A DNA stretch of 38,737 bases from an uncultured Verrucomicrobiota bacterium (lineage in GTDB: Bacteria; Verrucomicrobiota; Verrucomicrobiia; Palsa-1439). Below the pieces are notes generated by a model. It saw only the letters and a list, made by a program, of their open reading frames with translations. It made no database searches and was not told the DNA's origin. Location: contig CAINDI010000095.1 in NCBI GenBank assembly GCA_903847335.1, positions 1 to 38,737 on the forward strand. Reading direction: 5' to 3'. The position numbers and the translations under genes were made by a program. Shown here in pieces: positions 25,395 to 27,572 of the stretch. Positions within the stretch are counted from its first letter, which is position 1. The number at the start of each line of letters is the position of its first letter.

Positions 25395-25730
25395 ATGAAA
25401 TCACGCTCTAAGAAGCTCAAAGTAAAGAAGATAAAACGCGTTTCGACTAGTCGCCGACTCGCCCGGTTCCAGGAAGAACCGAAAGAACTAACCCTTTTGG
25501 CAAAAATCGCCAAAGCCACGGACGAATTGCAAGTTCTCCGCAGTCGGCTCTCGAATGCTGGCGATGACTTACCGGCGGTGGGCATGCATCGCATCACCGC
25601 CTTGGAGCATGAATTGGAACGGCTCTGGGAATTGCGCCGGCACGAACAAGCCGCGCCCTTGCGCCAGACGGCCTTGTCGGACGAAGAAGAGAAAGTTCTC
25701 GGTTTTTCCGTCGGCAATCGCAGTAACTGA
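25395..25730 (+). CDS. Small basic coiled-coil protein, unknown
   Basis: A 111-residue protein. The first 25 residues are very basic (MKSRSKKLKVKKIKRVSTSR), and residues 30-90 are a charged helix likely to form a coiled coil (LAKIAKATDELQVLRSRL, ALEHELERLWELRRHEQAA). No family is recognised. The basic N-terminus suggests nucleic acid binding, which is only inference. The gene ends 28 nt before mazG and is probably co-transcribed with it. Confidence 0.6.
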   Translation: MKSRSKKLKVKKIKRVSTSRRLARFQEEPKELTLLAKIAKATDELQVLRSRLSNAGDDLPAVGMHRITALEHELERLWELRRHEQAAPLRQTALSDEEEKVLGFSVGNRSN

Positions 25731-25758
25731 TTTGCCTCCGGCGAGTCGCAAGTTCCGC

Positions 25759-26547
25759 ATGCCGGCGCAGACCAAAAACATCACCCGGTTGCTGCAAATC
25801 ATGGCTCGGCTGCGCAGTCCTACCGGCTGCCCGTGGGATCGCGAACAGACTCACCGGACCATTCGCCACAATCTCATCGAAGAAACCTACGAAGCACTCG
25901 ACGCTCTCGACTCCGGTAACATGCCGGAGTTTTGCGATGAACTCGGTGATTTGCTTTTGCAAGTTGTTTTCCATTCCCAAATCGCCAGCGAAGCCGGGCA
26001 ATTCGATTTTGACACCGTTGCCAAAACGATTGCCGAGAAACTGCTCCGCCGGCATCCGCACGTGTTTGGCAAAGTCAAAGCCGACACCAGCCGGGAAGTA
26101 CTCCGGCAGTGGGAGGACATTAAGAAAACCGAGAAAAAATCCGCCTCGATTTACGCCGAAGTTCCGCGCAGCCTACCGGCGCTGTTGAAAGCCGACAAGA
26201 TTCAACGCAAAGCTTCGCGCGTCGGTTTCGATTGGAAACACGCCAAGGATGTCGTGGCCAAAGTCGAAGAGGAACTCCGGGAAATGAAAGCCGCGCTTGC
26301 CTCCGGTAACCGCCGGCACTTCGAGGAAGAGCTGGGCGATTTACTTTTCGCCACCGTCAATCTTGCCCGGTTCGAAAAACTCGACCCGGAAGATTTGCTC
26401 AACCGGACGACCCACAAATTTGTCAAACGATTCCAGCAAGTCGAGCGCGCCGTTCACAAGCGAGGCAAACGTCTCGAAGATTGCCCGCTGGAAGAACTCG
26501 ACGCGCTCTGGAATGCCGCCAAGCACCAAACAAAACGCCGCCGATAG
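25759..26547 (+). CDS. mazG: Nucleoside triphosphate pyrophosphohydrolase MazG
   Basis: A 262-residue MazG with the usual two tandem MazG domains. The first starts RLLQIMARLRSPTGCPWDRE and carries the metal-binding EETYEALDALD and EFCDELGDLLLQV motifs; the second has KVEEELREMKAA and FEEELGDLLFATVNLAR. MazG hydrolyses all NTPs to NMP and pyrophosphate, lowers alarmone levels and cleans damaged nucleotides. The start at 25759 gives the canonical N-terminus (MPAQTKNITRLLQIM). The protein ends normally (LEELDALWNAAKHQ) just before the integron-derived sequence, so the insertion did not break it. Confidence 0.95.
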   Translation: MPAQTKNITRLLQIMARLRSPTGCPWDREQTHRTIRHNLIEETYEALDALDSGNMPEFCDELGDLLLQVVFHSQIASEAGQFDFDTVAKTIAEKLLRRHPHVFGKVKADTSREVLRQWEDIKKTEKKSASIYAEVPRSLPALLKADKIQRKASRVGFDWKHAKDVVAKVEEELREMKAALASGNRRHFEEELGDLLFATVNLARFEKLDPEDLLNRTTHKFVKRFQQVERAVHKRGKRLEDCPLEELDALWNAAKHQTKRRR

Positions 26548-26704: not shown

Positions 26705-26832
26705 GCTCAACGACTCAAGCTCAGCCACAGCCACAGGCGGCCAGGCCAGCAATGGAATAATGATAATCGAATTTTCATGTCCCGGTCAAAACTGAAAGGG
26801 CAGTGGCTGTTGGCTGCAGCGTTTTGTTAGGC
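26705..26832 (-). mobile_element. Integron attC recombination site
   Basis: Read on the minus strand it runs from R'' GCCTAAC (26832-26826) to R' GTTGAGC (26711-26705), both fitting the RYYYAAC and GTTRRRY consensus. Just inside, GCTGCAGCCAACAGCCAC on the left can pair with GTGGCTGTGGCTGAGC on the right, leaving single extrahelical bases, the layout by which integron integrases recognise folded attC. The 128-nt length is in the attC range. The stop codon TAA of the adjacent gene lies within R'', as is common in gene cassettes. No integrase gene is in the window. Confidence 0.85.
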
Positions 26833-27375
26833 ATCCGGCTTCGCATCAGGACTCAACGTGTCTGCTATGCACTTCATCACCGTCAGAATATGAACACCAA
26901 GCCGATAATCCAGAATCTTCTGAGGCAATGGATAACCAGCGGATGTAGCTGCCTGAATGATGAGCGGCAACGGATACACAGCTCCGGTCTGCGCTCCACC
27001 CTTGAGCGCGATGGGCATAAACTCTGCCGTGTATGGCCAAATCTTCTCGAAAACGACCGAGTCGTGACGACCAAAAAAAACGAAAGCATCTCGAACTCTC
27101 TTGGTGAGGTCTTGAATCTCGGCAGGCTGCAATCTCTCCTGCAAGACTCGAATCAACACCCACAAAATAAAACACTCGTAAGCCATTAGGAAAACGGGCT
27201 GCTCGTCTGCGGAAAACTCCCCCATCACCTGCGACACCCACGGGTCCTCCAACTCCATCATTGCCACGGCAACTGCGTTCCGATGCAAAGCCGGTCCGCT
27301 CGCGCTCTCGAAATGGGCGTGGAATCGTTTCTCTAACCGCTTGGTAGCGATGCGTTGAAAAAGTCCGGCTAACAT
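26827..27375 (-). CDS. Integron gene-cassette protein, unknown function
   Basis: A 182-residue protein without signal peptide or recognised domain, probably mostly helical. Notable segments are EDPWVSQVMGEFSADEQPVF, LMAYECFILWVLIRVLQERL and the helix AEIQDLTKRVRDAFVFFGRH. A core-type site GTTAGGC (minus strand, 27396-27390) lies 14 nt upstream of its ATG and the attC begins at its stop codon, so the unit TTAGGC to attC is one complete cassette of about 685 nt. Composition differs from the neighbours: few CCGG sites (about 3 in 550 nt). A sigma70-like promoter outside the cassette can drive it. Function cannot be guessed; cassette proteins often have adaptive or toxin/antitoxin roles. Confidence 0.8.
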   Translation of the reverse strand: MLAGLFQRIATKRLEKRFHAHFESASGPALHRNAVAVAMMELEDPWVSQVMGEFSADEQPVFLMAYECFILWVLIRVLQERLQPAEIQDLTKRVRDAFVFFGRHDSVVFEKIWPYTAEFMPIALKGGAQTGAVYPLPLIIQAATSAGYPLPQKILDYRLGVHILTVMKCIADTLSPDAKPDA

Positions 27376-27460
27376 GGTGTGTCGAGGATGCCTAACATAT
27401 GTATTCGGCCATACTCAGAAGGGTGTCTCCCGACGTTGCTGTGGCCGCATTCATGGCGGC

Positions 27461-27489
27461 AGAGTAGAATTGCGGTGCAGGTGTGTCAA
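27461..27489 (-). promoter_or_regulatory. Sigma70-like promoter driving the cassette gene
   Basis: On the minus strand: -35 TTGACA (27489-27484), 17-nt spacer, -10 TACTCT (27466-27461). It lies about 65 nt outside the cassette boundary at 27396 and would give a leader of roughly 80 nt. The arrangement, promoter then GTTRRRY junction then gene, mimics an integron Pc promoter, though no integrase or attI is recognisable. Confidence 0.6.
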
Positions 27490-27542
27490 GCGTGAGTTCA
27501 AGTAGTGTGGGAAAGGATGGGGACAGCTAACCAAACCTCGCT

Positions 27543-27572
27543 CGGAGGGTCGCGCTTCCGCGCGACCCTCCG
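27543..27572. repeat. Perfect long palindrome (13-bp stem, TTCC loop)
   Basis: CGGAGGGTCGCGC (27543-27555), loop TTCC, then its exact complement (27560-27572), followed by ATTTTCC. It resembles REP-type palindromes scattered in bacterial genomes and could also end transcription from either side. It stands alone between the cassette promoter and nadD; only one copy is present in the window, so dispersion is unproven. The rest of 27490-27658 holds nothing else I can name. Confidence 0.6.

Follow-up and report, generated by a model that had tools for sequence, protein, structure and literature searches.

The present locus raises the question of how a single integron gene cassette came to lie between mazG and nadD with no integrase gene beside it. 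The analysis covered the whole 38,737-nt contig CAINDI010000095.1, hereafter called the window. A sequence-only reading of this DNA had proposed that one cassette was inserted at a secondary site, or that the locus is the remnant of a lost array. As described below, the locus is very probably an integrase-less integron platform, consisting of an attI site, its leader, a probable promoter, and one cassette.

The Gene Cassette and Its attC Site

The cassette (26711–27395, minus strand) is 685 nt long, beginning with the TTAGGC that follows the crossover G and ending with the G of R'. The crossover and cassette start, G^TTAGGC, can be read directly at 27396–27390 on the minus strand, and the ATG of a 182-codon ORF (27375–26827, minus strand) is located 14 nt past this GTTAGGC, exactly as had been noted before. 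The stop codon of the ORF falls inside R''. The cassette starts with the 7-mer GTTAGGC, which reverse-complements the cassette's own R'' (GCCTAAC) with 0 mismatches, as expected for a formerly circular cassette. The locus shows two further features of an integron cassette: a TTRRRY start complementary to R'' and an ORF between the two ends. On the far side, the half-site TTGAGC (26705–26710, minus strand) is contributed by the right flank and represents either the empty attI or a lost following cassette.

The attC site (128 nt, 26705–26832, minus strand) comprises R'' GCCTAAC (26826–26832), which includes the TAA stop codon, and R' GTTGAGC (26705–26711). Its L arms pair with two extrahelical bases, both of which are visible in the covariance-model alignment. 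A covariance model, R1, was built from 11 other sites of the host genome and its relatives, found by a short pattern, with the window site excluded. In this model, the window attC scored 54.1 bits, with an E-value of 1.6e-12 for the window and 9.9e-11 for the whole genome. Within the 11-site alignment, six pairs of the fold were changed on both sides, and sliding the pairing partners destroyed the fold. The L-arm pairing energy of the site is the strongest among all candidate attCs of the window; its free folding is only moderately better than that of shuffled sequences (z −1.5 to −1.95). To judge from its sequence, the attC is functional-looking. The covariance-model search of the window found this one attC only, and a DNA similarity search found no second copy of it in the host genome. 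The foldable attC with its stop codon and extrahelical bases, as well as the absence of a second attC from the window, had thus been recognized correctly. An Rfam search of the window gave no match. A loose R''/R' scan for listing attC sites was also tried and dropped as too permissive.

Under model R1, the host genome has no other strong attCs than a pair on contig C69, scoring 65.7 and 59 bits, which were both training sites. They belong to a second integrase-less array (L008, 8007–8105 and 8391–8451) of two cassettes, both of whose starts match their own R''. This array is placed between an aroE-like gene and an NADH dehydrogenase-like gene. Contigs C80 and C133 were considered as well, since they start near GTTAGGC, and turned out to carry an unrelated repeat rather than an attC; both begin with the same repeat of roughly 190 bp (C80:1–190 and C133:1–190).

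Collectively, 26711–27395 is a real integron gene cassette with a genuine attC. Taken alone, such a cassette is ordinary.

The Cassette Protein and the Flanking Genes

No relative of the 182-aa protein was found in Pfam, NCBIfam, PADLOC, PHROGs, the PDB, plasmids, genome contigs, or viral contigs, nor in 92 related genomes and 388 genomes of the phylum; over this range, the suggestion that the protein is undescribed stands. By codon usage, its frame is the best of the six, yet weaker than those of host genes. The single-sequence AlphaFold model is helical and weak (pLDDT 59), and a fold search with this weak model returned nothing significant.

The best relatives of the mazG and nadD genes of the window belong to the same genus or family, with 68–73% identity. 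In the relatives tested, the two genes are not adjacent and the gene order around the locus is unconserved, so that no orthologous empty site was found. The MazG frame (25555–26547) shows a peculiarity of its own: in the same-genus genome G001 and the same-family genome G002, the match to its first 60 residues lies some 800 bp away from the body of mazG. The window ORF may therefore be a fusion of two genes or the product of a deletion.

Integron Integrases in Related Genomes

An IntI above the curated cut-off is present in 18 of 57 genomes (the host genome and its relatives); the IntI-bearing relatives include G001 and three genomes of the same family (G002, G003, and G008). The cassette, with its genuine attC, belongs to a lineage with chromosomal integrons, which bears out its earlier description as an integron gene cassette without an integrase. 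In the IntI tree, clade A, formed by the integrases of G008, G011, G031, and G047 and a broken copy on contig C23 of G001, stands apart from the rest. The clade-A intI of G001 (L078:9351–10602) is broken by in-frame stops, and this particular integron is therefore decaying in the genus.

Two further features of the integrases were observed. Many IntI frames of the class (L081, L119, L124, and others) have 460–540 codons; ahead of the usual domain they carry an N-terminal extension of some 150–200 codons that is poorly conserved. In G031, three separate places (L119, L120, and L183) each encode an integron integrase; the three are almost the same in sequence (about 97% or more), and the attI leaders are near-identical at the two places compared.

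attI Core, Leader, and Promoter-like Sequence

In the intI-bearing relatives, the first cassette was found through its start, which matches the R'' of its attC, and this match fixes the position of attI. Against these sites, the sequence immediately upstream of the window cassette, TCTGAGTATGGCCGAATACATATG (27396–27419, minus strand), aligns in register with the attI of G031 at 18 of 24 positions, of G008 at 16, and of G047 and G001-C23 at 14 each. It has one mismatch to the attI pattern and is of the clade-A type. A position weight matrix (PWM) was made from these four reference sites, which were chosen after the similarity had been seen. With this matrix, the window boundary scored 18.7 bits and ranked first among 5144 GTT sites in 155 kb of the host genome, the next site scoring 9.2 bits. 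In leave-one-out matrices, it ranked first of 5175 GTT sites in every run; the same-genus G001-C23 attI, when left out, scored only 6.1 bits.

The crossover is preceded, 93 nt upstream, by TTGACA (27489–27484), followed by 17 nt and TACTCT (27466–27461), which together form a putative cassette promoter, Pc (27461–27489, minus strand). A promoter-like hexamer occupies a like position in G001 (TTGACG, −93) and G008 (TTGACA, −94), and also in G005 and on contig C116 of the host genome. TTGAC[AG] at −92 to −94 occurs at 13 of the 5144 GTT sites, the window site included. The attI and the promoter-like region make up an integron leader of 113 bp (27394–27506, minus strand), which is duplicated on C116. 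Judged by its matrix rank and this leader copy, the window locus has an attI, as a complete integron would. The earlier statement that the window holds no attI is therefore incorrect.

ATATGTTRRGCAC, the pattern of two reconstituted target sites, was considered as a target consensus and dropped, there being no other copy in the genome. The upstream boundary of the C69 array is only faintly similar to the attI of the second IntI clade; as a candidate attI it was unsupported, ranking 37 (sum) and 113 (best score) of 5158 when gaps and all GTT sites were counted.

The Leader Copy on Contig C116 and the Missing Integrase

A search of 93 genomes with the attI-core pattern gave two matches in the host genome, where the reversed control pattern gave none. 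The second match is located at the extreme end of a contig (C116:1–25). C116:1–113 and window positions 27394–27506 are 87.6% identical without gaps and divergent beyond; outside the attI core, the match is 74 of 87 bases. These two sequences are most simply explained if the leader was copied by descent.

Contig C116 terminates exactly at the crossover GTT. So does a contig of a different assembly, G024 (C128:14339–14364). Such ends are to be expected when the population is variable in its first cassette or the array is unassemblable. In addition, a palindrome such as AAAGCCATACTGAGTATGGCTTT lies between intI and attI on C116 (L149, about 170–200), L081, and L119; its loop and arm repeat CTGAGTATGG of the attI core.

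Next to its attI, C116 retains a broken N-terminal remnant of intI (tblastn with the G008 IntI, E 1.4e-4, against 0.005 for the best of 100 shuffles), and intI has therefore probably decayed or been lost in the host genome. The remnant adjoins a pyrG-like sequence, named so from a reading of its translation. At the window locus, only about 150 bp separate the leader from nadD, including a perfect hairpin, GGAGGGTCGCGC-ttcc-GCGCGACCCTCC (27544–27571), where intI would be expected. No intI remnant was detected in the window, the hairpin region included, as tblastn with IntI gave noise only. The intI that lies beside attI in a complete integron is thus missing here, and the absence of an integrase from the window, noted earlier, is confirmed by both the IntI profile and the tblastn searches. 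No intact intI above the curated cut-off was found in the fragmented, 177-contig assembly of the host genome, in which the best IntI matches are partial and reach at most 88 bits against a cut-off of 265; an unassembled stretch may still harbor one. All 14 control genomes likewise give matches with this model, each below the cut-off.

Integrase-less attI Loci in Relatives

An attI core with no IntI nearby was also detected in G001 (two loci), G005, G047, G080 (two loci), G092, G040, and G028. The absence of IntI at such loci was judged by tblastn of the stretches around the attI core, those of G080 and G092 included. Eight of the intI-less loci carry cassettes with a first-cassette start that matches its attC. 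The 7-mer match to R'' is exact at seven of them (G047, G080 twice, G092, G040, G028, and G005), and the eighth, G001-C14, has one mismatch. At the G047 locus, the 32 kb examined contain at least 15 attCs, and intI lies on another contig; the G092 locus has at least 11 attCs. Both numbers are minimum values, since divergent attCs escape the model. G080 has its two loci in a one-contig genome, and the G005 locus keeps an intI remnant of 53 aa. With so many integrase-less attachment sites with cassettes in the relatives, it is suggested that the integrons of these related bacteria are scattered over the chromosome and not kept as one unit. At least some of the integrase-less clusters here keep a recognizable attI and leader, and several per genome are possible.

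Copies of the leader within one genome are alike over about 113 bp in the host genome, 126 bp in G001, and 160 bp in G080, and are then unrelated. The leader pairs of G047 and G024 share little beyond the core; for these two, descent and a preference of the recombinase are therefore not separated.

Origin of the Locus

The rank of the attI core, the TTGACA at −93, and the leader copy on C116 together argue for an integron platform, and therefore against a cassette at a random secondary site. The cassette would have been inserted at attI by a clade-A IntI in the manner known from other integrons, in which attC takes part as a folded bottom strand and attI as a duplex. The window leader would be a copy of the C116 leader, where the broken start of intI adjoins attI, whereas no intI at all is seen beside the window copy. 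The cassette would be transcribed from the putative upstream TTGACA-N17-TACTCT. Promoter activity, past recombination by a clade-A IntI, and whether duplication preceded or followed intI loss are matters of inference. Of the earlier proposals, "remnant" thus comes nearer to the truth, the remnant being the attI and promoter end of an integron and not of an array only.

Within this explanation, the intI-less copy may have another origin, which is the only point of difference. The attI-leader units may be dispersed satellites that never had an intI of their own and were served in trans, so that the window unit was stranded when the intI on C116 decayed. This origin is a possibility of some weight, though not the favored one. 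It is consistent with the recurrence of intI-less attI loci with cassettes, also in large contigs (G047, G080 with two, and G092), and with leader copies that stop after about 113, 126, and 160 bp. However, the boundaries of these copies vary and no copying mechanism was found, while the intI remnant at the G005 attI fits a loss of intI equally well. Extended to the class, the idea becomes a tentative proposal of distributed integrons: short attI-leader units, part of them carrying a promoter-like sequence at a set position, would spread as copies without intI to several chromosomal loci, where each gathers cassettes of its own, all served in trans by one integrase encoded elsewhere; the window unit would have outlived that integrase.

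Apart from the platform, insertion at a secondary site could have taken place, as the sequence-only reading had considered: an IntI encoded elsewhere would have put a free cassette at an attG, a chromosomal GTT site whose likeness to attI only reflects the preference of the enzyme for such sequences. Such off-target insertion is established (Loot et al. 2024, as cited in PMC12901181 and PMC12444791), and the G047 and G024 pairs show that similarity between copies can be confined to the core. However, a recombinase preference does not require an identity of 87.6% between the window and C116 across 113 bp, with 74 of 87 bases agreeing outside the core, and the promoter-like TTGACA is as far from the crossover as it is in integrons that have intI. 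The target, being a clade-A-type attI duplicated elsewhere in the genome, is not unrelated to attI as an attG would be, and insertion at a secondary site is thus unlikely.

A binning or assembly artefact that brought in the cassette region from another organism is highly improbable: the assembly has 177 contigs and an estimated contamination of 4.45%, but the cassette is flanked, within a 38.7-kb contig, by mazG and nadD genes with same-genus or same-family relatives (68–73%), a second contig of the host genome carries the leader again, and the C69 attC locus is of the same attC type.

Comparison with Known Systems

To date, integrase-less clusters, off-target insertion, intI loss, and integrons in Verrucomicrobiota and other phyla have all been described (PMC9024848, PMC8618304, PMC12444791). 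Genome surveys find integrase-less cassette clusters at about the frequency of complete integrons (PMC9024848), and these clusters have been attributed to off-target insertion, intI loss, or rearrangement. A cluster of attC sites lacking an integron integrase is termed a CALIN, for which IntegronFinder 2 by default takes at least two attCs (PMC9024848). The window locus resembles a CALIN in having an attC-bearing cassette and no intI nearby. Yet, it has a single attC instead of two, and it keeps an attI and a leader, which lie outside the CALIN definition.

A sedentary chromosomal integron with a decayed intI, such as that of Xanthomonas at ilvD (PMC12444791), shares with the window locus the retained attI end and the cassette. 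Its intI is likewise inactivated, as is the broken remnant beside the C116 attI. In contrast, the attI leader here occurs in at least two places of the genome, and intI-less attI loci recur in several relatives. Cassettes at attG or secondary sites (Loot et al. 2024 and Francia et al. 1993, as cited in the literature consulted) are alike in their housekeeping flanks, GTT crossover, and lack of a nearby intI; the target in the window differs in being an attI with a duplicated 113-bp leader and not a minimal GTT or GWT site.

In the openly accessible literature that was searched, repeated intI-less attI sites within one genome were unreported. Platforms of this kind, recurring with an attI but without intI, appear to constitute a CALIN variant not reported before. 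If the units are indeed copied and served in trans, the integron would be a dispersed system rather than a single locus, and the origin of many CALINs could be tested by a search for attI at their 5' end. With intI clades as a guide, attI searches from sequence alone are feasible in poorly known phyla.
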